A stretch of DNA of 64,000 bases, from NCBI RefSeq assembly GCF_033100135.1, contig NZ_CP136920.1, positions 1,922,001 through 1,986,000 of the forward strand. Reading direction: 5' to 3'. Below, piece by piece: positions 1-35,643 of the stretch (position 1 is the first letter of the stretch; each line of letters begins with the position of its first letter). Origin of the DNA: Rubellicoccus peritrichatus. Its GTDB lineage: Bacteria; Verrucomicrobiota; Verrucomicrobiia; Opitutales; Cerasicoccaceae. Made by a program: the position numbers and the translations under genes. The notes under the pieces are model-generated. The model made no database searches. It was not told where the DNA came from and saw only the letters and a list, made by a program, of their open reading frames with translations.

Positions 1-441
1 GGTTATTTCCTTGGTTTTGATATATCATCGAAAGCAAAATCCATTCGTGAACAGCGCCTTCAAAAGCAGGCGGACATTTTTTCCATCGAACGTATCGGGG
101 CTGGGATCTCAATGGCACTTGGACCGTGCCATACCACTATTGAAACAGTGGATGACGAGTTCTGGAAAAATATTATCCTCAAGCTCCTGCTTAATGCGCA
201 TTCGACTTTGATCATGGGCAGGCTTGAGCGTTACGAAGGTAACCTCATGACCTGGGTTAAGCCAAGTAACAACAAACTCATCGACCGCGCCATACGTTAC
301 ATCTGCCGACTCTTCGAACAGCGCCATGACACTCAGTTGGACTATCGTAAAGTTTGCTATAAGCTCTTTGATATTCGTGAGACACTTAAGCCTGATGAAC
401 CTATTGTCCTGAGAACGCTTGATGCATTGGAAAACCAATAG
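1..441 (+). CDS. C-terminal part of an unknown protein (5' end outside window)
   Basis: Frame 1 is open from the first base to a TAG at 439-441, so about 146 residues of a longer protein are visible and the start lies upstream. The visible part is polar and predicted helical, with a Glu/Lys/Arg-rich stretch near residues 12-25 and no membrane segment. An internal ATG at 112 could be taken for the start, but the reading frame continues upstream without a stop. I recognise no family motif. It ends ten bases before the end of the convergent DUF3634 gene. Confidence 0.5.
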   Translation, partial: GYFLGFDISSKAKSIREQRLQKQADIFSIERIGAGISMALGPCHTTIETVDDEFWKNIILKLLLNAHSTLIMGRLERYEGNLMTWVKPSNNKLIDRAIRYICRLFEQRHDTQLDYRKVCYKLFDIRETLKPDEPIVLRTLDALENQ

Positions 442-5764: not shown

Positions 5765-7447
5765 ATGATTCTCGTCCCACAACCCAAGAAAATCTCCGAA
5801 AGAAAGGGCCGTTTTGCGGGCTCTGTTTCTTCAGTAAAGCGAACCACTAAGTCCGGTATGGGTAAGGAAGCTTATCGGCTCGAGGTTCACTCGGATGGTA
5901 TTGAGATCGTGGCAGGCGGTAAGGCTGGTGCCTTTTATGCTGATAAGACACTTCAACAGATCAAGAAGCAGTCTCGGGATGGTATCCCTTGTCTGAAGAT
6001 CGAAGATAAGCCTGACTTCGCAGAGCGGGCCTTCATGCTGGATGTGAGTCGTTGCAAGGTGCCTACGATGGATTCGCTGCGCCGGCTGGTCGATTTATTG
6101 GCAGACCTGAAGTTCAACCAGTTGCAGCTCTATATGGAGCATACATTTGCTTATGCAGGGCATGAAATTGTCTGGGGTGATGCATCGCCTTTGACTGGTG
6201 ACGATATCGAGGAGTTGGATGCTTATTGTAAGAAGCGCTTTATCGAGCTGGTTCCGAACCAGAACTCCTTTGGGCATATGGAGCGCTGGCTGCGCCACCC
6301 TGAGTATCAAGGCATGGCGGAATGTCCGGATGGGTTTATTCATCCACTGACTGGAGATAAGATTCCCTTTGGCTCCACTTTGAAGCCGGATGAGCAGAGC
6401 CTGAGTTTTCTGGAAGAACTTTACCGGGATTTGCTCCCGCATTTTTCGAGTCAGAAACTGCATGCCGGTTGTGATGAAACCTGGGAGTTAGGCACGGGTT
6501 GGAGCGAGCCTGTTGCCAAGGCTGAAGGGGTGGAGACGGTTTACCTGCGGTTTTTAAACCGTGTCAATCAGTTGGTGCAAAATCAGGGAAAGCAAATGCT
6601 TTTTTGGGCCGATGGTCTGATCAAACATCCGGAGTTGATTGCAAAAGCGCCGGAAGGGGCTTTGCCCGTAGTTTGGGGATATGAGCCCGCTCATCCTTTT
6701 GATCTGCAGTGCGGTTTCTTTGAAGAGGTCGATATCCCGTTTTATGTTGCACCAGGGGATTCGACTTGGAACAGCTTTTCCGGGAGACTCAATAATGCAG
6801 AGCATAATTTGATTACGGCGGCAAGGCATGGACATCGCCATGGAGCCCGCGGTTTGATTCACACACATTGGGGAGATAACGGGCATCCGCAGACATGGAT
6901 TACCATGCTGCCAGGATTGTTGATTGCTTCTGCCGTTTCATGGAATGCCAGTGAGCCGCCGCCACCGCTTGCCAGTGCTTTGGATAAATTGATATTTCGC
7001 GATGAGTCTTCGCTTGGCTCGGCGCTCTGTGAGTTGGCAGGTATTGATGCGGACATCCCTGTCGCGCGTCCAAATCGTAGTTTTCTTTTCGATAGTTTTT
7101 TCCAGGATGCCAAAGAGCTGAAGCCTCGCCTTGACGAGATTACTGAAGAAGCCATTTATGCTGCAACAGATAGACTCGATGGTATTGTGGATGGCATAAA
7201 TGATGCGCGGCCCAAAGCCGATGATGGCGCATGGCTGATTGATGAGCTGCAACTTGCCCATGATATGTGTTCGCTGGGGCTTGGAAGATTGATCGCTTTA
7301 AAGCATGGGCGAAACCTTAATTCACTTCGCCCAAGCATGATCGAACTGATTGGGCGTTATGAAGAAATCTGGCTGCGCCGTAATCGTCCCGGTGGCCTGC
7401 ATGAAAGTTCCGAGCGTTTGAGGAATGTGCTTCGGACATTGTCATGA
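5765..7447 (+). CDS. GH20-type beta-N-acetylhexosaminidase-like glycoside hydrolase
   Basis: A 560-residue enzyme with a GH20 layout: a small N-terminal domain (residues 1-85) starting with the typical VPQPKKI strand, then a TIM barrel from about residue 90. The barrel opens with FMLDVSRCKVP and has the paired acids in HAGCDETWELG, with Asp237-Glu238 as polarising residue and general acid for substrate-assisted release of N-acetylhexosamine. The His-Ala-Gly-Cys before Asp-Glu differs from the usual His-x-Gly-Gly. No signal peptide is seen, so it may act in the cytoplasm on imported oligosaccharides. The frame opens at a TTG at 5729, but the ATG at 5765 gives the family N-terminus. Confidence 0.85.
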   Translation: MILVPQPKKISERKGRFAGSVSSVKRTTKSGMGKEAYRLEVHSDGIEIVAGGKAGAFYADKTLQQIKKQSRDGIPCLKIEDKPDFAERAFMLDVSRCKVPTMDSLRRLVDLLADLKFNQLQLYMEHTFAYAGHEIVWGDASPLTGDDIEELDAYCKKRFIELVPNQNSFGHMERWLRHPEYQGMAECPDGFIHPLTGDKIPFGSTLKPDEQSLSFLEELYRDLLPHFSSQKLHAGCDETWELGTGWSEPVAKAEGVETVYLRFLNRVNQLVQNQGKQMLFWADGLIKHPELIAKAPEGALPVVWGYEPAHPFDLQCGFFEEVDIPFYVAPGDSTWNSFSGRLNNAEHNLITAARHGHRHGARGLIHTHWGDNGHPQTWITMLPGLLIASAVSWNASEPPPPLASALDKLIFRDESSLGSALCELAGIDADIPVARPNRSFLFDSFFQDAKELKPRLDEITEEAIYAATDRLDGIVDGINDARPKADDGAWLIDELQLAHDMCSLGLGRLIALKHGRNLNSLRPSMIELIGRYEEIWLRRNRPGGLHESSERLRNVLRTLS

Positions 7448-7474
7448 TTGAATTGTATTTAAATCAATCCGATT

Positions 7475-8155
7475 TTACTGGCAAAGCATTTCTCCGAACT
7501 CACCGCCACTTGCAATCATCCGCCAGGAAATAATAGCGGCTGCAATCAGGGCCAGACTGCCTTGAATCCAGCGGAGTATGTTGGGTGAAATTTGTTTGCG
7601 GTAATGCAGAAATGCCGCTTGCCCAATCCATAGCAACGGTATCGTCCCCAGGGCAAACCCGAGAGCCAGCTCTGCGCCAAGGATTGGAGATCCGGAAAAG
7701 AGGCAAAGTAGGAGAATCAGATATAATGGACCACAAGGCAGGAGTGGAGTTATCAGCCCGAGCCCTGCACCAAGCGATGCGCCGGACATCTCCCTGAGTC
7801 GGTTTGTTAGCTTGTGATAGAAGCGATTCCACGCTGCTGGTTTGGGCAGATAGCGGTCCAGCCTGAGACCTATCATGACCAGGACTGTAACCATGACCCA
7901 GGGGAGAATCCTGGCCGGTGTGGATTGGAGCAGCTCAACGACTTTACTCCCGAGAGCACCCATGATCGCCCCAAGCACCGTATAAGTGAGTGCGCGTGTT
8001 CCGTGGTAAAGTGCAAGGTTCGTGCTGGTGGTTCCGCCTTTACCCATTGGGATGACGGCGCAGCCGATTGGTCCGCACATGCCCACGCAATGCGGGCTTG
8101 TTGCCAGCCCGGCCATAAACGCTGTGAGCGCTCCAGTGATGGCTTGGAATTCCAT
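7475..8155 (-). CDS. TauE/SafE-like sulfite exporter family membrane protein
   Basis: A 226-residue protein with six to seven hydrophobic segments. The first helix holds SPHCVGMCGP, the Cys-x-x-x-Cys motif of the branch of this superfamily often linked to cytochrome oxidase or copper handling. A second half-repeat carries TPLLPCGPLY with a matching Cys-Gly-Pro. Likely role: transport of a small anion, metal or reducing equivalents across the inner membrane. No cytochrome oxidase genes are in the window, so the usual context is missing. It lies 22 bases downstream of aroQ on the same strand. Confidence 0.75.
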   Translation of the reverse strand: MEFQAITGALTAFMAGLATSPHCVGMCGPIGCAVIPMGKGGTTSTNLALYHGTRALTYTVLGAIMGALGSKVVELLQSTPARILPWVMVTVLVMIGLRLDRYLPKPAAWNRFYHKLTNRLREMSGASLGAGLGLITPLLPCGPLYLILLLCLFSGSPILGAELALGFALGTIPLLWIGQAAFLHYRKQISPNILRWIQGSLALIAAAIISWRMIASGGEFGEMLCQ

Positions 8156-22723: not shown

Positions 22724-23742
22724 GCCTTGTACGTCGTCAACTTGGATTATTACTTGCAGTAGCGCTTTGTTGCTTTGGACATCGCTTGCTAGCGCTTGAA
22801 CTTGATTACGATTATGATGGGGCGGAAGTTGTTTTCCATCTTATTGGCACTAAGCCTGAATCACGTTATAATTTAAGAATTATTGATCTGGTAACAGATC
22901 AACAGATTGCCGAAATTACAGAATTTGAAGCAGGTTCGGTTAGCGGTGTAAGAAATTCAAAGTGGAATCCTGACATTGATGAGGGGATTTTTCGTTTGGT
23001 TTTGGAAGTGAATGGAGAAAAATTCCATTTAGATGACGATGAGCTTGATTTTCGCACTGTTCAAACTGAGTTTATCCCAGTAAAGATAAACCGTAGGTTG
23101 GGAAAATTGCACTGGAGTCTGCCCGTTGCTGCACTTACGCGAGTCATTGCATATACGGATACTGGCCTCAAGGTTGCTTCAATCAGGCCATGGACCTTTT
23201 TACCACCTGGTAATTATACGGAATCCTGGAGCTTTAAAGATGCAGATGGCGTGAAAGATTACCGTGATGACCCGCAACTTAATCTCTACGCTCAAGCTTA
23301 TCCATTGCCTAGCAATATACTTATTATTGGAGAGCCTTTGCTTGATGGTTTTCAAGCCATAGATGACTTTAAGAATCTTGAGTTAACTAATGAACGTTAT
23401 GAGTTTGATGTGACTCTATTATCTCAAGGTGAAGGCTCACAATCATCCATCCAGGAGATGCAAGGTTTACCTGTGCTTCGCCCTGGTGATGCAGTTCGAG
23501 TTTCTCTCAAGGAATCCACAAAGCATGCGATGGGTAGTAAGCGCTTTGAGGTTCTTTTTTATTGGGATGATCAGTTTCTACATGAAGAAACTGACAGCCT
23601 GAACCCATGCACATTTATTTTCCCGAATGTTCCGGATTTCTCTGGAAAACAGTACCTGACCGTTAACGTGAAAGATCTTGTTGGTGGTTGGGGAGTGAAA
23701 ACAATTCCTGTCTATTATCTGCCTTCAAAAACTTTACAATGA
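22720..23742 (+). CDS. Exported beta-rich protein of unknown function
   Basis: A 340-residue protein with a signal peptide (about residues 1-25, ending LLALE) and a mature part of alternating beta strands that may form two or three Ig-like domains. Recognisable bits are a SKWNPDIDEGIFRLVLEV segment and an ESWSFKDADG turn. Both flanking junctions are 4-bp ATGA overlaps, so it is translationally coupled to the propeller protein before it and the RHS protein after it. That coupling suggests a chaperone, adaptor or surface partner of the RHS protein. I know no family for it. Confidence 0.6.
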   Translation: MSLVRRQLGLLLAVALCCFGHRLLALELDYDYDGAEVVFHLIGTKPESRYNLRIIDLVTDQQIAEITEFEAGSVSGVRNSKWNPDIDEGIFRLVLEVNGEKFHLDDDELDFRTVQTEFIPVKINRRLGKLHWSLPVAALTRVIAYTDTGLKVASIRPWTFLPPGNYTESWSFKDADGVKDYRDDPQLNLYAQAYPLPSNILIIGEPLLDGFQAIDDFKNLELTNERYEFDVTLLSQGEGSQSSIQEMQGLPVLRPGDAVRVSLKESTKHAMGSKRFEVLFYWDDQFLHEETDSLNPCTFIFPNVPDFSGKQYLTVNVKDLVGGWGVKTIPVYYLPSKTLQ

Positions 23743-26700
23743 ATATGAGTTACTTCAGCAAACTTCGCCAATATCTATTGGTCGGCATTTCTTTATTGGC
23801 TGTTACAGCCATGAGTTTTGCTGCGCATGATCCGGGCGATACACCAGCACCGCAGCCTGGGCCAGAACAGCCTAATTGTCCTGAAGATGACGGAGACGAG
23901 GGAGATCGTGAAGAGCCCAAGTGTAAAGAAGACAACACGGAGTATCCTGACAACGATGAAGAAGACAAGGGATGTGATGATAGTCAGGCAGGTGACCCTT
24001 TCTATCTCTTCTCCGGTGAGTTTTACTACGAGAAAGCTTTTCTTTCGCAACCCGAGCAACAAGTCCCGTTCAGAGTAGAATTTCGATATAGTACTTATTC
24101 GAGTTATAACGGCCCGTTTGGTTCACGTTGGTCGATGAACTACAATATGCGTATCTACGAGACGGATGATTCTCCTGCGCGGCTTATTTTTCGCGATGAC
24201 AAGGCCGTTCTTAATGAATTTGAATACAATAGTGCAGATGACGTCTATGAATTAGCGGACAGCTATGTCATGGACAAAATTACCTTTGATTCTGGGCGCC
24301 CTTACCCATACATATTGCGCCGACAAGGGGCTGGTTCGATTCGCTATTATTTTGATGCTCAAGGCTTACTCCGTGTCATTAGTCAGGGGGATCTCTACGG
24401 CACGACCCCGGTCAATGGAGTTTACATTGATTATGTCGAGTCGGCAGGTTTAGCGCAGAAGCTTCCAGTGAAAGGGCTGCCATTGCTGACTAATCTGAAA
24501 GATCAATCCACAGTTGAGCTTGTCACAGTGATACGTGACTACCGTATTACCAGTGTACGTGAATTCGAGGCTGCGCCGACACCAGTGGCTTTGGCTTCTG
24601 ATATGGTTGGAACAGGCTCAGGTGCACCTCTGACCGGGCGAGAATTCAATATGCTTTATTACCCTTCCGGACACTTGAAATCTGTTACTGATCAATCGAT
24701 GCGCACACTCTTTTTGGAATATGACTCGAATGGTTATGGTGAGTTGGTCAAGCTGACAACAGGCCTTTCTGACGGTACTTCTGCTCCAACTGATGGTGTC
24801 AGCTACGACTATAGCTATTATAGTGATGCATCTACTGAGGCTACGAAATCCTACTTCCGCTATATGAAAACGTTTAGCGGTGAAGGTTGTGGGGATTGCA
24901 CACAACGTGCACTAACTTACTATGATGAAATTGATGATAGCACCACCGATTACGCTGGTTGGGTGAAAACTCAGATTCAAGCTCAAGGAGCAGGTGAGTC
25001 TATTGCTGTTGCCTATCACATGGTGGGAGAAACGATTCCCTACACGGATGTTACATTTACCATTAATACTGAAGATGTTAGTGGGAATGCGCTCACACAG
25101 TATCGCGAAGAACGCAGCTATTGGATGCAGGACACTTTCGACACATACCGTTTGCGTCGCAAGGAGATATTGCGCCCAACAGATACAAATCCAAATCCTG
25201 CTTTTAACGATCCTACTTCAACGACCTTGAGCAATGACAATTATGCAGTGCAGTACTTCTACTATGGGGATGGCTTGGGAGGCCCCAATTCGAGTACTGA
25301 TGGATATTCAGCCTGGCGAGCACGGAGAAAGATTCTTCCAAATGGATCGGATGTTTATTACTATTACGACACGAACGATTATCTTAAAAAACGCACGCGA
25401 ACAGTTGATGCTGATACCATACTAGTGCAGCAGTATGCCCGCGATGATTCTGGAGATCTTTTGCGTGAAGCAATGTATTTGACCACTGCGGCAGGAGTAC
25501 TCAAGGGAACGGTAAGTCTGATGGCATATGAATATGATAGTGCCGGGCAAAATACTTTTAAGCACAGACTGAAGACTGATTATACGAATGTCAGCGGTGA
25601 CATTGCGAATTGGCCAATTCCGGCCTTCTCAACGGCTGACACTTATACCACTACTGAAATGCGGTATAACAGCGCAGGTCTCATGATTGCAGATATTGAT
25701 GCCAATGGAATTGCCACACTTTACGAATATAATCCGCCCGCTAGTGCAGTCGACTATCCTTGGGCACCTTCAGCGGAGTATCGTGATATGAACGGTAATT
25801 ATCTGATTGATGTCGGTGATATCCTCATCGCATCATATACATACGACGCATATGGCTATTTAGATACAAAAACGGATGCGAACGGTGGTGTCTACGATTA
25901 CGACTACAATGAATTTGGCGATATTGAACGCATTGAAGACCCACTGGGCTTTGTGACCATTCGTGAGTATGATACGACTACGCGGAAGTTGATCTCAGAA
26001 GAAACAGGTGTTAAATTCAGCGCTCCAGGAGTTCGCGACACAAATGTTGTATCTCGTAAGACAAAATTCACCTATGACGGCCTCTATCGTTTAGATACAG
26101 TTTTCCGTTTCGATGAGAGCGACAATCAGGTGCCACAGGTGAGGTACACTTACGACAATGAGGGCAACAGATTGACCATTCAACAAGTCACTACGCTTGG
26201 AGCCTTAACTGCCGGCGAATACTCGATTGGAAGCACATTCATCGAACGCTCAACTTACAGTGTCATGGGATGGATGACGGCTGCTGTTACTCCATTTCCT
26301 GCTTATGACGGACAGGGTGGAGCAACGGAAGTTGTGGTTAATTACGAATATGATGCTGGTGGGCGTATGATTAAAATGGTCGCTCCAAATCCTGATACCG
26401 ATGCGGCCTCCGCTACGGTTACCACAAAGTACGAATATGATGGGCGTGATCAGAGAACACTGGAAACTCAAGCCTTCGGTGATCCACTAGAACGTTCGAT
26501 GGCATATGATTACGATGTTTTTGGGAATACCACAAAAATCACTTATACCAGTGGTAGTGATACTGCGCTTACTCGTTTTTACTATGATAATCTCGGGCGT
26601 CAGGTCGGTATCAATTGGGATCCGGATAATGCCACTCCCGATCCTGATGGTGCCCGGCAATTGCCGAAGCTTATGACTTATGATGATGTTGGTAATATGC

Positions 26701-29687
26701 TGACTCAAACCGATGGTGGTGGCTTTTCCATTGATTCAAATGGTGCAATTGTTGAGCGTAGCGGTGGTGGCGGTAACACAACTGTTTATCAAATTGATAA
26801 ATTTAATCGAATCAAAGGCATCAATTGGGATTTTAGCTCAGACGCACCATTGGCAAGCTACGAAGGCTTACTTCCACAGAAGATGGTATATGATAATGTA
26901 GGTAATGCTCTTTCTGCGACTGATGGAGAAGGCAACACAACTTATCTTCGCTATGATGCCATGAACCAACCGACAGAAATTTCTGTGCCTAAAGGAAATG
27001 ATTTTGGGGCCTCTGCATTAAGCGGGAATTGGTGGGAAATAGCGACTAATGTTCTGCAATCTGTGGCTTATGATGCCTGGGGGCAACGGTTGAACGTTAC
27101 TCAACTCGCTGGAGGTATAGATACATCTACTTATGACCGCTTTGGTCGACTTAAGACAAATACTGATCTTGCCGGACTCTTTTTGACCTATACTTATGAT
27201 AATCTAGACCAAATTGATAGTGTTATATATCCAGAGGTTGTGGGGACGACTGCAGGGACGACTACAATTGTGAATACTTATAACAGTGTTAATCCAAGGC
27301 TGATCGATAGCCTTACAGACAGGGCGGGTTTAAGTACTGATTTTACCTATATCACTAGCTTTCGGCGTGAAACCGTCAACAGCTCGCAAAATGCAACCAC
27401 CACTTACACATACAATGCATTAGGTCAGTTAGAATCGGAAAAGAATGACTTGAATCAAACGACTTCATACACATACGATCAGTTCAACCAAAGGCTCACC
27501 ATTACTTATCCGGATCATAGCGCTCAAGCCGAACGTGTGCAGGTCCTGGCCTATGATGCCTTCGGTCAGCTTTCCTCCCAGCGGGGTGCCGCTACTTATG
27601 ATGTCGATTATGATTACGATCTGGCTGGGAATCGTGCTGCAATGACAACGTATTATGGTGACAATGATCCATTGGATACTTCTGTTACCACTTGGGGATT
27701 CAATGTGCGTAACCAGATGACCCAAAAAACATATGCTGATAACACTTATTATGACTATGCTTACGACGATGCTGGTAATTTGTCGGAACGCACGGATGGC
27801 AAGCAAAGGCTGACAAAATATTACTATGATGCATTTAATAATTTGACGATCACTGATTATCAGAATGATGGTGATGTTCTGCTGGAGTATGATGATTTCG
27901 GTAGGCTGATCAAAATGTGGGAAGGTGGTACAACTACCGCTGGAGTTTATGCCCCGGCAGAGCCAGCGGCAGACCAGGAATGGACCTACTTCCCGAGTAA
28001 CTTGATTGATACACATACACAGCGTTCCGTTGGTTATGAAGTGGCTTACACTTATACCAGCGAAAGTCAGCGAGATACCAGGAAGGTTCGCCCCATCGGC
28101 GGCTCTGATTGGACACTTGATTACAGTTATGATTCAGCGGGGCGGATGGATTCCATTAAGGATACTGCAATTAGTAGTACCGCTTTCAGTTATACCTACA
28201 AATCTGATGCGAATTTAATAGAAGACTTGGTGAATCCAAGTAATTCAAAAATTAAGCGTACTTACGATATCCTTGGACGGCTTAAGAAAATTGAGACTCT
28301 GGATCAAAGTCTAGGCGTCATAGATTCCTATGCTTACAACTATAATGACGTTGGTTTGAGAGAAGATGAGACACTCGCTAATAACGACGTTCGAGTTTTT
28401 ACTTATGATGAGCGACGGCAACTTACTGATGCAGTGATTGCTTCATCATCCTATAACTATGGTTGGGGTTATGACCCAATTGGTAATCGTTTGGGCTATG
28501 ACAATGATGGTGATGACCAATATGATGTGATCTATGATCCAAATAAGCTTAATCAGTATGGTAATGTTACGGGCTTGGGCGACATGACTTACAATGATAA
28601 TGGTAGTTTGACCAATACTCAAAATGGCGGGATTACATACGTATGGGATGAGGAAAACCGTCTTGTGGAAGTTTACGATAGTGCTAAAAGGTCCGTGTAT
28701 ACTTATGACGGATTGAGTAAGCGGATTCGTAAGCAGGATTATGTTGATTCCAGTGGGAGTTGGGTCCTTGATTCCGATACACAGTATGTCTACGATGATA
28801 AGCTAGTGATTGTCGATCTTGTTGACGATGATCTTGGTGGGGCTAGCCTGCATACGCCCAAGCGTTACTATACCCGAGGACTTGATATTACCCAGACACT
28901 TAATGGCGCAGGCGGTGTTGGTAGCCTGATTGCTTTGCGAGAAATCGGGGCAGATAGCTACTTTTACTATTATGATGGCAATGGCAATGTGACTGGTCTC
29001 ATTAAAACTGATGATACTGTTGCGGCTTCTTACAGCTATGACCCTTTCGGCAATGTCCTCTCTTCAAGTGTCGGCCTGGGGCAAACCAATCCCTATCAAT
29101 TCTCAACCAAAGAATATGAAAAAGACTGGGATCTGAATTACTACCTATATCGATTTTATTCACCGGAGCTGGGGAGATGGCTAAGTCGCGATCCGATTAT
29201 GGAAAATGGAGGCTATAATCTATATTCATTCGTGAGAAATCAGCCGATCAATTTGTATGACATACTAGGGTTACAGGCGTGTTGTAAGGGTGGCAAATCT
29301 GTGCACCCAATTGATCACTGTTGTCGTCCACAATTCAATGCACACGCAGATGCTCAAGTGAGATTGGATCAATTACATGAAGCAATTGATACTGTTCAGG
29401 AGCAGCTGGAAGATGCTATTACTGGTTTACTTGCTGTGGCTGAACTGAAGCGTCGTGCCGATAACTTCCGGGATGCAATGTGTCGTAGCTGGAGAGCGAT
29501 ATTGCCTAGTTGCCGTGCTGCTGTGGCACTTGCTATGGCCATGGATTTGCAACAAGACGCTGCAAAAGCAGAAGTTGATCGACAAAGAGCAGGTTTGGAG
29601 CGTTTATTAGACGATCTTCCTGATCTTACGGAGAATAAAAATATAAAATACAAAGCACTTCAAGATTGCCTCAAAAAATATGATTAG
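23739..29687 (+). CDS. Secreted RHS/YD-repeat protein with variable C-terminal tail
   Basis: A 1982-residue protein. A signal peptide (about 1-28, SLLAVTAMSFA) is followed by a Pro/Asp/Glu-rich linker and an RHS N-terminal domain from about residue 85. YD repeats such as YEYDAGGRM fill most of the chain and would form the hollow RHS cocoon. The conserved core near residues 1805-1845 has YRFYSPELGRWLSRDPI, then NQPINLYDILGL, in which the usual Asp-Pro-x-Gly-Leu cleavage motif is altered to Asp-Ile-Leu-Gly-Leu. The last 137 residues are unrelated: two Cys-Cys pairs, His, then a long coiled-coil. The frame opens at 23688, but the ATG at 23739 overlaps the previous stop and gives the signal peptide. 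Confidence 0.9.
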   Translation: MNMSYFSKLRQYLLVGISLLAVTAMSFAAHDPGDTPAPQPGPEQPNCPEDDGDEGDREEPKCKEDNTEYPDNDEEDKGCDDSQAGDPFYLFSGEFYYEKAFLSQPEQQVPFRVEFRYSTYSSYNGPFGSRWSMNYNMRIYETDDSPARLIFRDDKAVLNEFEYNSADDVYELADSYVMDKITFDSGRPYPYILRRQGAGSIRYYFDAQGLLRVISQGDLYGTTPVNGVYIDYVESAGLAQKLPVKGLPLLTNLKDQSTVELVTVIRDYRITSVREFEAAPTPVALASDMVGTGSGAPLTGREFNMLYYPSGHLKSVTDQSMRTLFLEYDSNGYGELVKLTTGLSDGTSAPTDGVSYDYSYYSDASTEATKSYFRYMKTFSGEGCGDCTQRALTYYDEIDDSTTDYAGWVKTQIQAQGAGESIAVAYHMVGETIPYTDVTFTINTEDVSGNALTQYREERSYWMQDTFDTYRLRRKEILRPTDTNPNPAFNDPTSTTLSNDNYAVQYFYYGDGLGGPNSSTDGYSAWRARRKILPNGSDVYYYYDTNDYLKKRTRTVDADTILVQQYARDDSGDLLREAMYLTTAAGVLKGTVSLMAYEYDSAGQNTFKHRLKTDYTNVSGDIANWPIPAFSTADTYTTTEMRYNSAGLMIADIDANGIATLYEYNPPASAVDYPWAPSAEYRDMNGNYLIDVGDILIASYTYDAYGYLDTKTDANGGVYDYDYNEFGDIERIEDPLGFVTIREYDTTTRKLISEETGVKFSAPGVRDTNVVSRKTKFTYDGLYRLDTVFRFDESDNQVPQVRYTYDNEGNRLTIQQVTTLGALTAGEYSIGSTFIERSTYSVMGWMTAAVTPFPAYDGQGGATEVVVNYEYDAGGRMIKMVAPNPDTDAASATVTTKYEYDGRDQRTLETQAFGDPLERSMAYDYDVFGNTTKITYTSGSDTALTRFYYDNLGRQVGINWDPDNATPDPDGARQLPKLMTYDDVGNMLTQTDGGGFSIDSNGAIVERSGGGGNTTVYQIDKFNRIKGINWDFSSDAPLASYEGLLPQKMVYDNVGNALSATDGEGNTTYLRYDAMNQPTEISVPKGNDFGASALSGNWWEIATNVLQSVAYDAWGQRLNVTQLAGGIDTSTYDRFGRLKTNTDLAGLFLTYTYDNLDQIDSVIYPEVVGTTAGTTTIVNTYNSVNPRLIDSLTDRAGLSTDFTYITSFRRETVNSSQNATTTYTYNALGQLESEKNDLNQTTSYTYDQFNQRLTITYPDHSAQAERVQVLAYDAFGQLSSQRGAATYDVDYDYDLAGNRAAMTTYYGDNDPLDTSVTTWGFNVRNQMTQKTYADNTYYDYAYDDAGNLSERTDGKQRLTKYYYDAFNNLTITDYQNDGDVLLEYDDFGRLIKMWEGGTTTAGVYAPAEPAADQEWTYFPSNLIDTHTQRSVGYEVAYTYTSESQRDTRKVRPIGGSDWTLDYSYDSAGRMDSIKDTAISSTAFSYTYKSDANLIEDLVNPSNSKIKRTYDILGRLKKIETLDQSLGVIDSYAYNYNDVGLREDETLANNDVRVFTYDERRQLTDAVIASSSYNYGWGYDPIGNRLGYDNDGDDQYDVIYDPNKLNQYGNVTGLGDMTYNDNGSLTNTQNGGITYVWDEENRLVEVYDSAKRSVYTYDGLSKRIRKQDYVDSSGSWVLDSDTQYVYDDKLVIVDLVDDDLGGASLHTPKRYYTRGLDITQTLNGAGGVGSLIALREIGADSYFYYYDGNGNVTGLIKTDDTVAASYSYDPFGNVLSSSVGLGQTNPYQFSTKEYEKDWDLNYYLYRFYSPELGRWLSRDPIMENGGYNLYSFVRNQPINLYDILGLQACCKGGKSVHPIDHCCRPQFNAHADAQVRLDQLHEAIDTVQEQLEDAITGLLAVAELKRRADNFRDAMCRSWRAILPSCRAAVALAMAMDLQQDAAKAEVDRQRAGLERLLDDLPDLTENKNIKYKALQDCLKKYD

Positions 29688-30078
29688 AATTATGAATAGA
29701 ATATATTTAAGTATGTTAGTTTTGCTCTTTGTTGGATGCGGAGAATCTAATCAGCAAGGATCTATCCATGATAAGGTTTTTGATGTTACTATTAAAAACG
29801 AAATTAAGGACAGATTGAGTCTGTTTTTTGATCAGTATGATTTAAGCGAGAGTGATGAAGCTTTTTTGGTCAATCAAGTTTATAGAATATCTCTCGCAAT
29901 AGATGAAACCTCTGATTCTTCAGATGAAGGCAGGCTTTTTAGCATGAGAGAACTTATGGAACGAAAGCTTTTGAAGGACGTGAAGGAGAAATTTGGTGAA
30001 TCTTTTGCGGAAAAATTCATGAGTTTTTTGAATGAAAACAAAGTGATTGATGATACTATGAAGATGTTTGATGATTGA
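29680..30078 (+). CDS. Small AT-rich lipoprotein, candidate immunity partner of the RHS protein
   Basis: A 132-residue protein with a lipoprotein signal: hydrophobic MLVLLFVGC, with the lipid-bearing Cys near residue 20. The mature part is acidic and helical (SESDEAFLVNQVYRIS, ESFAEKFMSFLNEN) with no motif I know. It starts inside the end of the RHS gene (8-bp overlap; an alternative ATG is at 29692) and is visibly richer in A and T than its neighbours. A small gene directly after an RHS variable tail is the usual place for an immunity gene. That function is inference only. Confidence 0.65.
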   Translation: MIRIMNRIYLSMLVLLFVGCGESNQQGSIHDKVFDVTIKNEIKDRLSLFFDQYDLSESDEAFLVNQVYRISLAIDETSDSSDEGRLFSMRELMERKLLKDVKEKFGESFAEKFMSFLNENKVIDDTMKMFDD

Positions 30079-30136: not shown

Positions 30137-31090
30137 ATGCCGTCATTGAGAATTTGGGAAAGAGAAATCGCATCTTGTCTGCTTGGGTATGGCATTTTAT
30201 TTGCTATACTATTATCTCCTGTATTAAACGCAGATTCTACAAACTTGAATCCGGTGGATCTGGCCAATCTCGAAAACACATACCTTTACGCTGATGGCAT
30301 TTACGGAGGCTCGGGGCCGTATGGGGAAGCGGACTTCGCGGCTTTGCAGGATGCAGGGATCAAGACGGTGGTCAGCGTGGATGGGGCTTATCCGAAGATA
30401 GAATTAGCGCGGAAATATGGCTTGGAATATATCCATGTTCCGATTGGTTACGATCAAGTCTCGGAAGAAAAGACTGCGCAGTTGGTCAAGGCGATGCAGA
30501 CACGTGAAGGGCCGTTTTATGTGCACTGTCATCATGGGAAGCACCGCGGTCCGGCGGCGGCGGTTTGTATGCTGGTTGGCGCTGGAAAGATTTCCAATGA
30601 CTCAGCTGTCGCGATCATGAAGCAGGTGGGCACCTCTGCAGATTACACCGGTCTTTATGCTGATGCTCAAAATATGACCGTGCTTGAGCAGGCAACGATT
30701 GATGCCGCACCGGAATTGCGGGAAGTCGCCGAAGTTTCCGAGCTGGCCGCCGTCATGGCGCAAATCGATATCGCCTGGGACAACCTCGTCCTGGTCCGTG
30801 AAGCCGGTTGGGGGCCAGTTCCCGGGCATCCGGATATCGATCCAGCCCATGAAGCCCTCATGCTGAATGAATTCTTCCGTGAGCTGGTGCGTCAACGCGA
30901 AGACGTTGATTTGACCGAAGAAGAAATGGAACCATTTACCGAGTACAACGAATGGATGGATGAATCCGCTCGTCTCTCAGGAGAACTGGAGCAGGGAATC
31001 CGTCTCGATAAAGACGGCGTTTTTCTCGAAACCCAGTTCAAGGGCTTGAAGCAGTCTTGTGTTCTCTGCCACGAGGCTTACCGTAACTAA
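30137..31090 (+). CDS. Dual-specificity-phosphatase-like domain fused to cytochrome c'-like domain
   Basis: A 317-residue exported protein. A hydrophobic segment at residues 14-30 acts as signal or anchor. Residues 40-185 resemble the dual-specificity phosphatase fold; the phosphate-binding loop is VHCHHGKHRGPAA near residue 130, with Cys and Arg spaced as in His-Cys-x5-Arg. Residues 200-317 are helical and end in SCVLCHEAYRN, a heme c motif placed close to the C-terminus as in cytochrome c'/c556 four-helix bundles. So phosphatase and electron-carrier or ligand-sensing parts appear joined in the periplasm. The general acid Asp of phosphatases is not evident to me. An ABC importer operon follows after a hairpin repeat. 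Confidence 0.75.
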   Translation: MPSLRIWEREIASCLLGYGILFAILLSPVLNADSTNLNPVDLANLENTYLYADGIYGGSGPYGEADFAALQDAGIKTVVSVDGAYPKIELARKYGLEYIHVPIGYDQVSEEKTAQLVKAMQTREGPFYVHCHHGKHRGPAAAVCMLVGAGKISNDSAVAIMKQVGTSADYTGLYADAQNMTVLEQATIDAAPELREVAEVSELAAVMAQIDIAWDNLVLVREAGWGPVPGHPDIDPAHEALMLNEFFRELVRQREDVDLTEEEMEPFTEYNEWMDESARLSGELEQGIRLDKDGVFLETQFKGLKQSCVLCHEAYRN

Positions 31091-31133
31091 GGTAATGTTA
31101 ATAATTTCCTTGTTTACTCGTGATGAAAAATGT

Positions 31134-31204
31134 CTCTCGCAAAGACGCCAAGGGCGCTAAGTTTTTATTTTCCAAGCTTTGCGCCCTTGGCGTCTTTGCG
31201 AGAG
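31134..31204. repeat. Near-perfect 28-bp inverted repeat, CTCTCGCAAAGACGCC type
   Basis: Arms 31134-31161 and 31177-31204 pair over 27 of 28 positions around a 15-base AT-rich loop. It is the best preserved copy of the repeat also seen at 13230-13303. It lies 43 bases after the phosphatase-cytochrome gene and 25 bases before the binding-protein gene; as RNA it would be a very stable hairpin that could attenuate transcription or protect mRNA ends. Confidence 0.85.
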
Positions 31205-31229
31205 AAAGAATTCAGTGACTTTAAGCATC

Positions 31230-32258
31230 ATGGCAACACAGAAGAAAATATGGGTATTTATCCCGCTACTGATTACACTCTTATTTGGCTGTGGGCCGAA
31301 GGATAATAACGGCGAATCAAACCGGGTGGTTGTTTATACCTCATGGGATCAGCCGCATTCACGTCCCATTCTCCAGAAGTTTGAGGAGCAAACCGGAATT
31401 AAGGTCGATGCAGTTTACGATGCGGAAGCCTCCAAGACCGCCGGTCTCGTTAATCGCCTGATTGCGGAGAAGAACAATCCCAGAGCCGACGTGTTTTGGA
31501 ACTCCGAAATCGTTCGCACCCTTGTTTTGAAGGAGAAGGAAGTGCTCGCTCCCTACAAGCCACCGGCTTGGGAAGAGACGCCATCATCGTTCCGTGATCC
31601 CGAGGGTTATTGGACAGGTTTTGCGGGACGTGCGCGTGTGCTCATTTACAACACCGATCTTATCACCAATCCACCGACCGAGCTCAAGGCATTGACTGAG
31701 TCCGAGTGGAAGGGTAGGGCAACAATCGCGAACCCTCTCTTTGGCACAACTTCAACCGAAGTGGCCACCTGGTTCAGCCTTTGGGGATCGGAAAAAGCCG
31801 AGGGTTTCCTCATGGCTTTGAAAAACAACGACGTGATTATCTCGACCGGAAACGCGACGGCGAAAGATGCAGTCGCGAGCGGTGAAGTGCCGATTGGCTT
31901 GACGGACACCGACGATGCCTGGGGGGCGATGCAGAATAATAAGCCAGTCGATATGGTTTTTCTCGATCAGGCAGGTGAGGGAGCATTGTTGATTCCTAAT
32001 ACGGTCTGTCTGATCAAAGGCGCTCCCAATGAAACGAACGCCAAGAAGCTGATCGATTTTTTGACCAGCCGCGAAGTTTCTGAAATGCTGGCCAACTCTC
32101 GCGCCGGTCAGATTCCTTTGAAGAAGGATATTCCCGCTCCATCTCATGTTGAAGCCTGGGCTTCAAAGAAGTTCAAGCAGGTGGATTTTGAAGCGGCCTA
32201 CAAAGAGCTCGATCCTGCGATGCAGTTTGTCCGTGACGAGTTCCTGGAGGCTCGTTAG
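31230..32258 (+). CDS. ABC transporter substrate-binding lipoprotein (iron/phosphonate/thiamine type)
   Basis: A 342-residue lipoprotein: lipobox LLFGC near residue 18, then VVVYTSWDQPHSRPILQKFEEQTGI, the opening of the FbpA/PhnS/ThiB group of binding proteins. Other family parts are RADVFWNSE, GYWTGFAGRARVLIYN and GLTDTDDAWGA. The tandem tyrosines that bind ferric iron in FbpA are not present at the usual place, so the ligand need not be iron. I chose the ATG at 31230; the frame extends upstream only into repeat sequence. It starts a three-gene importer operon with the permease 6 bases downstream. Confidence 0.85.
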   Translation: MATQKKIWVFIPLLITLLFGCGPKDNNGESNRVVVYTSWDQPHSRPILQKFEEQTGIKVDAVYDAEASKTAGLVNRLIAEKNNPRADVFWNSEIVRTLVLKEKEVLAPYKPPAWEETPSSFRDPEGYWTGFAGRARVLIYNTDLITNPPTELKALTESEWKGRATIANPLFGTTSTEVATWFSLWGSEKAEGFLMALKNNDVIISTGNATAKDAVASGEVPIGLTDTDDAWGAMQNNKPVDMVFLDQAGEGALLIPNTVCLIKGAPNETNAKKLIDFLTSREVSEMLANSRAGQIPLKKDIPAPSHVEAWASKKFKQVDFEAAYKELDPAMQFVRDEFLEAR

Positions 32259-32264
32259 TTCTCC

Positions 32265-33866
32265 ATGAGTGTCGGATATCGAGTCACGGCTTGGGTATTG
32301 GCAGCCGTCATCTGTGTTTTCTTTGCTCTTCCGATCTATGGAATGGTCGCCGGATGGTTCGAAGCAACAGCAAGCTCGGATACTACGAGTTGGCAGATCT
32401 GGAAGAATCCGCGCAGTTGGGAATTGTTTTTGAAAACACTATGGGTCGCGGTGATAGTTGCTGCGATCACGACATTTGTGGGCTGGTTTACTGCTTATTG
32501 CCTGGAGGCTTTCTCTTTCAAATGGAGGGCAGTTATCTTGGCCTTTATGGTCGCAGCCTATTTGCTATCACCGTATATCGTCGTGCAGTCTCTAATTGGG
32601 CTGCTGGGAACAAATGGTTCACTGTGGCAGTTTATCCCTAATATGGGGTTTGATTTATATTCCACGACTGGCCTTGTTGTTCTGGAAGTGCTTTGGCTGT
32701 TTCCCCTGTCCGTAACTATTTGTGTGGTAGGTTCATCTTTCTTTCCCGCCAAGGTGGCAGACGAAGTGCGTATTTATCGTTTCAAAGGTTGGCGTTGGTT
32801 CCAATGTTATGCTTGGCCGAAATACCGGTGGTCCGTGTTTTTGAGCTTTTGTATGATTTCCATTCTGGCCTTCTGGAATTATGAAATTCCATCCATGCTT
32901 CGTCAGAATATGTATCCCATCGAGATCATGGCGGCGTTTGGTTCCTTCTATGATTATCGGCAGGCGGTCTCATTGGTCTTGGTGCCTTTAGTGGGTGCTC
33001 TCTTTGTATTTCTGCCATGGATGGTATTGTCGTTTAAAGTCCGTGCTGAATGGACAACCCGCCGAATCCAGGCAATTCATTCTACGACTCGCAGATGGTT
33101 GCTTATAATCATTGGAATTGTATTTGCTCTAATCGTGTGGGGCGTGCCTCTGTTTTCATTATTGGAGCAGATTTCCGGGTGGTCTGTTTTTAAGGAAAAT
33201 TTTGTCTCCTTCAAAAACGATATTTGGAATACTCTGCAGAATGGATTGATTGTTGCTTTGCTGGCATCTCTCTTTGCTTTCTTTCTAGCCTTAGTGTGTC
33301 GAATTAGTAGCTCTGTACACCTTGAGAGAGCTATTTGGGCCATGGCTATTCTTGTCTGGGTGATTCCATCAAGCTTGTGGGGTATGGGCTTTGTTCATTT
33401 GTTTGGTTTGCCAGCATTCGCTTTTGTGCGTCAAATGAAAGCCGAACTGATGATGGTTGAGCTTTACGCTGCTTTGCCACTTGCGATCGTTTTATTGGGG
33501 CTCTTATCCCAGCAGTGGACACTTCGTCAAAGTGAAGAGCTTGAACAATATCATACTCCCCTGGGACAGCGGTTAAGACTTTTCTGGTGTCAATTCTGGC
33601 CGAATTTGATTGGGATTCAGATATTCACTTTTGTCCTCGCAATCCGCGAAGTACCAGCGAGCTTGCTTAATGTTCCTCCTGGTGGGGCGACTCTGGCTCT
33701 GACGATTGAAACCCTGTTGCACTTTGAGCAACCTGAACGGGTTGCTTCTTTATGCCTTTTCCAGCTGACAATCAGCCTTTTCGCTGTCCTAATTCTAATT
33801 GCTTTCGTATTAATCGTTACTTCGCGTTTCCGCTGGCACAGCCATCCTGCATCAAACCTTCAATGA
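32265..33866 (+). CDS. ABC transporter permease, two-repeat FbpB type
   Basis: A 533-residue inner membrane protein with about twelve hydrophobic helices in two halves, each a binding-protein-dependent permease domain. The second-half coupling loop region reads LEQYHTPLGQRLRLFWCQFWP, and the first has VADEVRIYRFKGWRWFQCYAWP, the EAA-type contacts to the ATPase. This fused arrangement is typical of ferric-iron and 2-aminoethylphosphonate importers. Its stop overlaps the ATPase start by 4 bp. Confidence 0.85.
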   Translation: MSVGYRVTAWVLAAVICVFFALPIYGMVAGWFEATASSDTTSWQIWKNPRSWELFLKTLWVAVIVAAITTFVGWFTAYCLEAFSFKWRAVILAFMVAAYLLSPYIVVQSLIGLLGTNGSLWQFIPNMGFDLYSTTGLVVLEVLWLFPLSVTICVVGSSFFPAKVADEVRIYRFKGWRWFQCYAWPKYRWSVFLSFCMISILAFWNYEIPSMLRQNMYPIEIMAAFGSFYDYRQAVSLVLVPLVGALFVFLPWMVLSFKVRAEWTTRRIQAIHSTTRRWLLIIIGIVFALIVWGVPLFSLLEQISGWSVFKENFVSFKNDIWNTLQNGLIVALLASLFAFFLALVCRISSSVHLERAIWAMAILVWVIPSSLWGMGFVHLFGLPAFAFVRQMKAELMMVELYAALPLAIVLLGLLSQQWTLRQSEELEQYHTPLGQRLRLFWCQFWPNLIGIQIFTFVLAIREVPASLLNVPPGGATLALTIETLLHFEQPERVASLCLFQLTISLFAVLILIAFVLIVTSRFRWHSHPASNLQ

Positions 33867-34831
33867 GTATTTTAAAAGCGCAACATATAAGCAAACGACT
33901 GGGTAAAGTTCAGGTTTTGGCGGATGTATCCCTGGAACTAGTTACTGGTAGGAGCCATGCGCTCTTGGGCAAAAGTGGTTCTGGCAAGACGACACTGGCG
34001 CGTATTCTGAGTTCATTGGACAAGGCTGATTCCGGTGATATGAAGATCGAAAAGGACAAACGGGTTGTCCTTGTTCAGCAGGATTTTGTCATCTGGCCGA
34101 GTTTGACTGTCAGAGAAAACGTTGCTCTGGGAGTAACACCAGGTGTGAATAAAAAAGAAATAGCTAACATCGTGTTGGATTCACTTTCAAAGGTGAGACT
34201 CGATGGTTTGGCTGAACGTAAAGCTGGTGAATTATCTTACGGACAGCAACAACGTGTTGCCTTGGCTCGTGCACTGGTTTCCGGAGCTGATGTTCTTATT
34301 TTGGACGAACCCTTCGCTCACCTTGATCCACAAGGTCGCCGGGCAATATGGCGAGAATTAGCGTTTTCATTCGGCGAGAGTGGAGTGACCAGCCTCTGGA
34401 TTACGCATAATCCTGCTGACGCTTTTCCGGTAGCTGATATGGTTTTTTGTTTAGAAGATGGAAAAATTATTCAGCAAGGCATACCAGCAGATATTTACCT
34501 TCATCCGGTTAACCGCTCGATCGCGGAATTCAGCGGTCGGCTGAATATCTTGGAATATGAAGACTGGAAGGAGCTCGGACTGTCGCCCCCTGATTCCGTC
34601 AAAAATGGTCAGTCTGTTGGAATACGACCTGAGTCACTGACTCTCGTGTCTGACGAAAGCGGGCTATGGTTAGGCTCGGATACAAACGAGAGTTTTGCTG
34701 GTCTTGGTTATTCTTATTCAATACCGCTGAAGCAGGGGCGTGAATGCCTGGTGACGATGCTTGATCGTATTGATTCAGATAAACGTTATCGCCTCAAATT
34801 TTCAGGTATGCTTTGCTGGCAAGATAAATAA
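33863..34831 (+). CDS. ABC transporter ATP-binding protein
   Basis: A 322-residue ATPase with Walker A GKSGSGKTT near residue 35, Q-loop VQQDFVIWP, signature LSYGQQQRVALARAL, Walker B VLILDEPFAHLD and the switch His in WITHNP. The last 100 residues have the feel of a TOBE domain, as in FbpC/PotA-type importers. The frame is open upstream, but the ATG at 33863, overlapping the permease stop by 4 bp, gives the right N-terminus (MSILKAQHISKRLG). It energises the permease encoded just before it. Confidence 0.93.
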   Translation: MSILKAQHISKRLGKVQVLADVSLELVTGRSHALLGKSGSGKTTLARILSSLDKADSGDMKIEKDKRVVLVQQDFVIWPSLTVRENVALGVTPGVNKKEIANIVLDSLSKVRLDGLAERKAGELSYGQQQRVALARALVSGADVLILDEPFAHLDPQGRRAIWRELAFSFGESGVTSLWITHNPADAFPVADMVFCLEDGKIIQQGIPADIYLHPVNRSIAEFSGRLNILEYEDWKELGLSPPDSVKNGQSVGIRPESLTLVSDESGLWLGSDTNESFAGLGYSYSIPLKQGRECLVTMLDRIDSDKRYRLKFSGMLCWQDK

Positions 34832-34833
34832 TC

Positions 34834-35643
34834 ATGAGATGTTGTCTATTACTCTTGCCGATTCTATTATTTGCTTCACTTGAAGCTAAGACTTACGTCA
34901 CTTTGGAGAAAGTAGATCTGGATCGCTGTGCCTCGGCCTGGCTTTTTACGCGTTTTTTAGATGAATCACCGAAGTTTCTCTTTTTTGAGCAAGGCGGCGA
35001 GCCACCGGAAGGTGTATCATATGATTTTTTTGGCGCACAATATTTCCATCATGGCTCGGATTGCACATTTACTACTTTGATTAAAACATTTGGCTTGTCT
35101 GACGAAAAGGCTCTTCAAAAGATTAACAACGACGTGAACGACGTTTTCGCCTGGCGTTGGTCACCTGGTTCATTTCCAATCGAACTGCGTGAGCATATTG
35201 CTCGATTACGAGAGTTAACCAATAATGATGCTGAAGTATATGAAATGATCTTCCCCGTATTTGATCTTCTCTATCTTAAATATGGAGGAAATGCTGAACG
35301 CTTTCATGCGAAAGCGGAGCACGAGATGCAATTTCTCCCATTGGATGTAGTTACTCCAGGTCTTAGCGAGATCACTAAAGGAAATATAGCTGCCTTGAGA
35401 AAAGGACAAATTGAACTGCCGACTCTATCGGAGTATAGTGATTCAACACAGCTTTTAGGAATTATCCAACAACCTTATTCTGAATGGTCGGATGACGATT
35501 TACAGATCATTTCAGGGCAGCTTTATAATGGATCAACCTCGACGACTGAAGAGCTCCTTACAGAAGTCATTGGTGATCTTCCCGAAGAGAATGAGCTCGC
35601 TATAGAGGCACTGAACTTTCGTCAGGCCATATTAGTTAAATGA
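34834..35643 (+). CDS. Exported ChrB-like (chromate resistance C-domain) protein
   Basis: A 269-residue protein with a signal peptide (about residues 1-18). Residues 23-110 resemble the C-terminal domain of chromate resistance protein ChrB: KVDLDRCASAWLFTRFLDE, YDFFGAQYFHHGSDCTF and a following TLIKTFGLSDEKAL. In ChrB these segments carry conserved His and Cys residues. The rest is helical and unassigned. The start codon lies 2 bases after the ATPase stop, so it belongs to the importer operon. ChrA itself is absent. A role in periplasmic oxyanion or metal handling is inference; the domain match is by memory of family motifs. Confidence 0.6.
   Translation: MRCCLLLLPILLFASLEAKTYVTLEKVDLDRCASAWLFTRFLDESPKFLFFEQGGEPPEGVSYDFFGAQYFHHGSDCTFTTLIKTFGLSDEKALQKINNDVNDVFAWRWSPGSFPIELREHIARLRELTNNDAEVYEMIFPVFDLLYLKYGGNAERFHAKAEHEMQFLPLDVVTPGLSEITKGNIAALRKGQIELPTLSEYSDSTQLLGIIQQPYSEWSDDDLQIISGQLYNGSTSTTEELLTEVIGDLPEENELAIEALNFRQAILVK

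Follow-up and report, generated by a model that had tools for sequence, protein, structure and literature searches.

PTP-type cysteines are redox-sensitive, and we know of none that is built together with an electron-transfer heme; a literature search of open-licence full texts found no published phosphatase-cytochrome fusion. Siw14 and PFA-DSP1, which are inositol-pyrophosphate phosphatases, carry no heme, and Siw14-type loops keep a Thr after the loop Arg. The DUF442 or Blh domain (3gxg, 3gxh, TIGR01244) is, in the NCBIfam Blh protein, joined to a dioxygenase and not to a cytochrome. TpbA of Pseudomonas aeruginosa (4r0s, 2m3v), the best structural and sequence match to the protein described here, is likewise a periplasmic DSP domain, but it has no heme domain and its loop reads HCKHGNNR followed by Thr. 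In TpbA, Asp105 is the proposed general acid/base, and 53% of efficiency is reported lost in D105A (PMC4409338). PRL (PTP4A) phosphatases have no Ser/Thr after the loop Arg, and PMC12192612 explains a phosphocysteine lifetime of more than 1 hour by the Ala that replaces it, with a phosphocysteine stable for weeks on additional loss of the Asp; the same paper describes this Asp as dispensable for the first step, and gives PRLs a second, disulfide-capable Cys and binding to CNNM. For PFA-DSP1, PMC9038691 proposes a cycle in which no residue serves as general acid, the enzyme working without a WPD-loop acid.

Among the cytochromes, b562, engineered cb562 and c556 are free-standing proteins that share a four-helix bundle with a Met on helix 1 and a His on helix 4 (positions aligned on b562). 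The heme ligands of b562 we take to be Met7 and His102, and the heme of natural b562 is not covalently bound. A C-terminal CxxCH is typical of class II cytochromes c. Cytochromes c' (PF01322) have the same fold, a C-terminal CxxCH and an Arg four residues past the His. In those described in PMC5368077, the sixth place is Tyr16, or Leu in AXCP, and the heme is five-coordinate.

A single gene in the window (the whole 64,000-nucleotide stretch of Rubellicoccus peritrichatus DNA that was analysed) joins a domain of each kind in one protein (Table 1). The initial annotation had described an exported protein of 317 residues with His-Cys-x5-Arg near residue 130, CxxCH at about residues 307-312, five residues from the C-terminus, and a helical segment after residue 200. 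All of this was recovered: the open reading frame is intact on the + strand, the motifs are H130-C131-x5-R137 and C308-V-L-C311-H312, and four helices are modelled beyond residue 200 (202-222, 236-256, 261-289 and 294-315), the check for a non-bundle fold having found a bundle. The whole-protein model, with an 11-sequence alignment as input, has a pLDDT of 88.8 and a pTM of 0.79. By simple pattern searches, 130/141 homologues have a hydrophobic run ahead of the domain and 73/141 a lipobox-like motif; the protein would be periplasmic, and in some relatives it is probably lipid-anchored. The gene is single-copy in the window's genome, where cytochrome c assembly proteins are represented by two above-cut-off matches to PF01578. 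Searches for a defence system (PADLOC, E<=0.01) and for phage origin (E<=1e-5 among 50,697 phage records) each gave 0 matches.

Table 1. Features of the phosphatase-cytochrome gene and of the genes downstream of it, in window coordinates.
Feature	Position	Strand	Basis
Exported DSP-type phosphatase domain + class II cytochrome c, whole gene (317 aa)	30137..31090	+	ORF, ATG start, Pfam, alignment, model
N-terminal export signal, residues 1-32, cleavage site approximate	30137..30232	+	Hydrophobic helix 5-26 (model)
DSP/PTP-fold domain, residues 38-195	30248..30721	+	VIA-align Z 16.6 to TpbA 4r0s, 155 residues, rmsd 2.9
General-acid loop P102-I-G-Y105-D106-Q107	30440..30457	+	P102, Y105 invariant; D106 variable
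Phosphate-binding loop H130-C131-H-H-G-K-H136-R137-G138	30524..30550	+	Sequence, alignment; HCHHGKHR = residues 130-137, 30524-30547
Class II cytochrome c four-helix bundle, residues 198-317	30728..31087	+	Profiles, models, structure comparison
M207, proposed sixth heme ligand	30755..30757	+	144/144; on b562 Met7 if helix 1 is ungapped
Heme attachment motif C308-V-L-C311-H312	31058..31072	+	144/144, set chosen for CxxCH; five residues before C-terminus
R316, four residues past heme His	31082..31084	+	142/144, remaining two gapped
Terminator-like hairpin, 73 bases, 25-bp arms	31133..31205	+	-59.9 kcal/mol, z -12.8
FbpA-superfamily substrate-binding protein; true start probably ATG 31231	31179..32258	+	Sequence matches
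ABC importer permease	32265..33866	+	Position; matches to same gene in L224, L206, L225
ABC importer ATPase, ORF, probable start internal	33752..34831	+	PF00005 E 7e-29
Exported ChrB C-terminal-domain protein	34834..35643	+	PF09828 E 7e-24; after importer in L224 too

The protein belongs to a family with a wide but uneven distribution. A first scan by pattern, with each species represented by one genome, found 11 relatives in Verrucomicrobia, Planctomycetes and Hydrogenedentota, ten of them full-length and one (L041) with its frame lost near a contig end. The same architecture is present in 12 relatives with 29-39% identity, both motifs are invariant in a 13-row alignment, and in a 95-row alignment the homologues are 24-44% identical to the window protein. 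With a family profile, 154/392 sampled Planctomycetota genomes match at E<=1e-20. Of these, 138 are classed as heme-linked (fused, split or contig-cut) and 16 as having a heme-less phosphatase only, a class assigned on match coverage, with a sequence check in 10/16 heme-less genomes and G416, G463, G606, G667, G682 and G783 heme-less by coverage alone. Individual places from the Planctomycetota scans with the family profile and with the binding protein discussed below are among the matches listed. The window's own phylum (Verrucomicrobiota) has 3/387 sampled genomes positive, the window's included, and the phylum of the Hydrogenedentota locus 5/60. Two planctomycete plasmids also have the gene, under the names 'dual specificity protein phosphatase' and 'hypothetical protein'. 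When 95 members were placed in a tree, four sequences from verrucomicrobial MAGs clustered together (support 0.954) and the place of the window protein was weakly supported (0.128); the tree speaks neither for nor against horizontal transfer of the window gene.

The set of 144 homologues, mostly from Planctomycetota, consists of 141 distinct proteins with a downstream CxxCH and three added sequences (G587, G594 and G649). Motif conservation across this set rules out a chance pairing or a frame artefact, and the central claim of the initial annotation, a DSP/PTP domain fused to a class II c-type cytochrome with the two motifs co-conserved in many genomes, is borne out. Homologues without CxxCH were sought as evidence against that claim. 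There are 26 profile matches without a C-terminal CxxCH: three lie at contig ends (L041, L183 and L191), three are unfused with a cytochrome as the next gene, and 20 form a different subgroup with a conventional loop, having Asp/Glu before the Arg and Thr after it. There is thus good support for a real two-domain family that is widespread and in which both centres are co-selected.

Joint working of the two parts is indicated most strongly by the split cases, which keep the cytochrome next door, while none was found beside control phosphatases. Each of the three unfused relatives (L192, L193 and L195) is directly followed, on the same strand, by a gene for a class II cytochrome that has a C-terminal CxxCH and matches the heme-domain profile (E 4e-10, 4e-8 and 5e-5). 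As read from the sequences, the helix-1 Met is kept in the L192 and L193 cytochromes and is not obvious in that of L195. Beside the control phosphatases, a class II cytochrome was found at 0/40 distinct places at E<=0.01, in flanks of about 0.9-1.5 kb; the controls are 45 loci representing 38 distinct places, plus two, most of them found by likeness to the window protein. Three heme-less controls (L004, L008 and L013) have the loop HC[NK]GGSHR[GA], in which His precedes the loop Arg and Thr does not follow it, and thus a loop of this type does not alone predict a heme partner. The other 37/40 distinct controls have Asp/Glu before the Arg and Thr after it.

A profile check of the phosphatase part, suggested with the initial annotation, gave above-cut-off matches to PF22785 (Tc-R-P, E 8e-8) and PF22784 (PTP-SAK, E 6e-7), and a match to Pfam DSPc below the cut-off (E 9e-5). 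Against the DUF442/Blh domain, the window protein scores far below the NCBIfam cut-offs. A PDB sequence search matched TpbA and other DSPs to the N-terminal part, and the family profile matches TpbA (2m3v) at E 4e-14. In structure comparison, the model is closest to TpbA (Z 16.6), followed at Z 14-16 by VHZ, an archaeal PTP, DUF442 (about 15), Siw14 and PFA-DSP1 (about 15) and PRL (about 14-15).

Within this domain, C131, G134, R137, P102 and Y105 are identical in 144/144 homologues, H130 is kept in 143/144, H133 in 140/144 and H136 in 141/144, and D82 in 139/141. The remark in the initial annotation that the general acid is not evident needs correction: D106 is a candidate, standing in a HMMER alignment opposite the first Asp of the TpbA PTHADRVDD stretch, which is Asp105, although residue 106 is Asp in 83/144 and Lys, Ser, Arg, Asn or another residue in 61/144. 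Position 138, directly after the loop Arg, is Gly in 114 homologues, Ser in 26, Ala in four and Thr in none (n=144), with Gly in the window protein; the Ser/Thr that standard DSPs have here is absent in 118/144. Neither Asp at 106 nor Ser/Thr at 138 is present in 52/140 (34+15+3, a pattern count over members with a standard HC loop). A departure from standard DSP catalysis is likely. By analogy with PRLs, which also miss the Ser/Thr after the Arg, the family should be slow in turnover or hold its ligand, and among members that keep Ser138 (26/144) or D106 (83/144), some may, to judge from these residues, be competent phosphatases.

A disulfide switch with a second Cys was considered and rejected. 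Unlike PRLs, the family has no second conserved Cys: no other column of the 141-protein alignment has Cys in more than 33/141, and there is no conserved partner.

Phe or Tyr occupies loop position 132 in 39/140 members (L064, L071, L072 and others), 38/39 of which are without Asp106; this is a coupled active-site change. In L115, the loop is degenerate (TCETGRDR), yet the Cys, the Arg and the CxxCH are intact. At this locus (5986-7977, - strand), the open frame continues from an apparent Na/Ca-exchanger protein into the phosphatase domain, and this long frame may be a real fusion or two genes sharing one frame.

For the heme domain, a proposed profile check against cytochrome c' gave a divided result. 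The window protein alone matches Cytochrom_C_2 (PF01322) below the cut-off (E 0.009), whereas 86/95 family members match it at E<=0.01; six match the cytochrome b562 family. Searching the PDB with the heme-domain profile gave cytochromes c' (E 1e-7) and cytochrome b562 (E 7e-7). Modelled alone, the domain has a pLDDT of 94.3. Its best three Foldseek matches are cytochromes c' (E 0.04-0.1), with 0 matches at <=0.001, and in VIA-align the top six rows are designed bundles (Z about 13), with cytochromes c'/b562 at Z 11-12. As designed bundles score above natural cytochromes, sequence outranks fold as evidence for this domain. A PF01322 genome search was non-discriminating, with nothing in the window's genome and nothing in the control genomes.

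M207, C308, C311 and H312 are identical in 144/144 homologues, the invariance of CxxCH following from selection of the set. With residues 4..119 of the domain model aligned to 1..106 of b562, M207 (domain residue 10) falls on Met7 and H312 (domain residue 115) on His102, a pairing that assumes no gap shifting these two helices. R316 presumably stands at the place of the cytochrome c' proximal Arg. An invariant Met at the sixth place, against Tyr or Leu in cytochromes c', favours a six-coordinate electron-transfer heme. On this alignment, the heme is probably six-coordinate through His312 and Met207, c556/cb562-like, and not that of a gas-binding cytochrome c'. Of the cytochrome c'-like domain first annotated, the class II bundle stands, and the c' label is better replaced by c556/cb562-like given the invariant Met.

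Downstream of the gene in the window are the genes of an ABC importer (Table 1). The search for this importer at other loci was targeted, prompted by a neighbour common to the window and L002 (39% identical). The binding protein lies within 5 kb in 9/148 loci: the window, G289, G584, G472 (where it is 4.7 kb away), G521, G450, G398 (one of the split cases), G504 and G750. The 148 loci are made up of 98 (L002 and L224 being one place), 48 with about 0.9 kb of flank, and three; near the three added loci L233-L235, the importer search gave no match. The 62 genomes searched contain 66 copies of the binding protein, roughly one each, and about 0.3 adjacent pairs would be expected if 10 kb is taken out of a genome of about 5.5 Mb. 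At an expectation of 0.27, nine or more adjacent pairs have a Poisson probability of 2e-11, a figure that ignores kinship; the phosphatase-cytochrome proteins of 8/9 importer-linked loci (the window's excluded) are 31-46% identical to one another, with one pair at 64%. Among Planctomycetota genomes, the binding protein is found in 127/138 that are family-positive versus 97/254 that are family-negative (Fisher p 1e-27, ignoring phylogeny). In G584, the binding protein, permease, ATPase and phosphatase-cytochrome genes follow in this order on one strand, and the first in-frame ATG of the last is 27 bases past the ATPase stop. The family is likely tied to an FbpA-superfamily importer. In the window, co-transcription of the gene with the importer is doubtful because a strong hairpin separates them (Table 1).

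A 20-base stretch of the hairpin arm is found nowhere else in the genome as an exact match, and once with two mismatches. L115 has a weak importer match (E 9e-7) on the opposite strand, which was excluded from the count.

The binding protein matches the iron-utilization periplasmic protein chain 3kn8 at E 8e-23. FbpA binds iron through a tandem Tyr pair. This pair is absent here: a TDTDD stretch, without Tyr, and several other acidic residues are invariant in 9/9 binding proteins, and Asp246-Ala247 stands opposite Tyr-Ala of 3kn8 in a single alignment to a chain that is perhaps a site mutant. Because the Tyr pair is missing, a cargo other than iron is possible, and the residues present suggest that it may be another cation or a phosphorylated compound.

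Neighbours were otherwise diverse. No common operon emerged from clustering 660 neighbours, taken up to five genes away at each of 95 loci (the window's neighbours excluded), the clusters spanning at most nine loci, and no recurrent family was found by Pfam on 131 immediate neighbours, the commonest occurring in 3/131. These are 131 of 157 immediate neighbours, 19 short or overlapping ORFs having been left out. NCBIfam on the same neighbours was uninformative because ABC ATPases match many models.

Building on the observed architecture, conservation, co-selection of the modules and genomic link to the importer, the reading tentatively favoured is a two-module periplasmic unit in which an oxyanion-binding Cys domain of slow turnover is redox-coupled to an electron-transfer heme and serves an FbpA-type importer. 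In the first module, the Cys-x5-Arg loop would grip phosphate or a similar oxyanion and probably form a Cys adduct, the release of which would be slow because Gly replaces the usual Ser/Thr after the loop Arg. The second module would be a class II cytochrome c with a six-coordinate His312/Met207 heme, suited to electron transfer rather than gas binding. We infer from the pairing a coupling of oxyanion binding or Cys chemistry to one-electron transfer via the heme; redox or heme control of the catalytic Cys is possible. The unit would serve the FbpA-superfamily ABC importer, and in the simplest role its substrate would be a phosphate-bound or redox-sensitive metal, or the phosphorylated carrier of such a metal, handled before uptake. 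Against this explanation, the importer is within 5 kb in only 9/148 loci and the neighbours share no common operon. The hairpin ahead of the importer in the window, the members that keep Ser138 or D106, and the three heme-less controls with a loop of similar type also count against it.

The first alternative, which is unlikely, is an ordinary TpbA-like periplasmic phosphatase acting on proteins or small molecules, with a heme domain that merely docks to a respiratory partner or tunes the enzyme. TpbA is the closest solved structure (Z 16.6, and E 4e-14 with the family profile) and D106, aligned with the TpbA Asp105 proposed as general acid/base in PMC4409338, is kept in 83/144; however, 118/144 are without Ser/Thr after the Arg, 61/144 are without Asp106, and M207 never varies. 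As M207 is invariant and D106 is lost in 61/144, the heme pocket is under tighter constraint than the phosphatase acid. This same pattern, in which neither the Cys and Arg of the P-loop nor the heme ligands vary but the phosphatase-specific residues do, would suit an oxidoreductase on a PTP scaffold, with C131 binding an oxyanion of S, As or another element, or forming a persulfide, and the heme exchanging electrons. The DUF442 fold, that of sulfur transferases as named by NCBIfam, is a close structural match. Such an enzyme is also unlikely and is placed second: a single heme can carry just one electron, neither a second redox centre nor a partner Cys is conserved, and the 25 neighbour families listed include no sulfur- or arsenic-redox family, with sulfatases occurring twice and no family in more than 3/131. 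Quite unlikely is a scheme in which the P-loop would hold the phosphate of a metal-phosphate complex or phosphorylated metal carrier, the His/Met heme would exchange an electron with the metal or with the Cys adduct, and the cargo would then go to the FbpA-type importer.

A phosphatase of phosphoanhydrides or polyphosphorylated ligands, working in the manner of Siw14 and PFA-DSP1 with no need of a protein general acid, is improbable. The GKHR loop of the window protein resembles that of Siw14, but Siw14-type loops presumably retain Thr after the Arg, the heme would be unexplained, and to our knowledge there are no periplasmic inositol pyrophosphates. PFA-DSP1, with its acid-free cycle as proposed in PMC9038691, is a structural neighbour (Z about 15). 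Least probable is an NO/CO sensor in which a five-coordinate cytochrome c' gates the phosphatase, since, although 86/95 bundles match the Pfam cytochrome c' family, the three best Foldseek matches are cytochromes c' and R316 is kept, Met is present in 144/144 at the place of the b562 Met ligand, where PMC5368077 gives Tyr or Leu for the cytochromes c' it describes.

With respect to the favoured two-module unit, the pairing occurs in 138/392 sampled Planctomycetota genomes, persists as neighbouring genes where it is unfused, and is accompanied by loss of residues that give PTPs fast turnover. It hints that phosphate and redox chemistry may be linked outside the cell membrane in a way not known before. 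If the two centres communicate, the protein would be a small soluble one on which redox control over phosphate chemistry could be measured directly, and the gene, called 'dual specificity protein phosphatase' or 'hypothetical protein' in the two plasmid annotations, would gain a role. On the quite unlikely metal-phosphate scheme described above, these would be the first phosphatase-superfamily proteins with an active-site Cys working with a covalently bound heme, and a redox-driven branch of PTP chemistry would be spread through Planctomycetota.

Directly upstream of the gene in the window lies a 1999-residue RHS-repeat protein (23688-29687, + strand; PF05593 and PF20148). After it comes a small ORF (29680-30078, + strand) of 132 residues, lipoprotein-like and with no family match. 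An RHS-like fragment and a small lipoprotein-like ORF, as read from the ORFs, are also present in the vicinity of L002.
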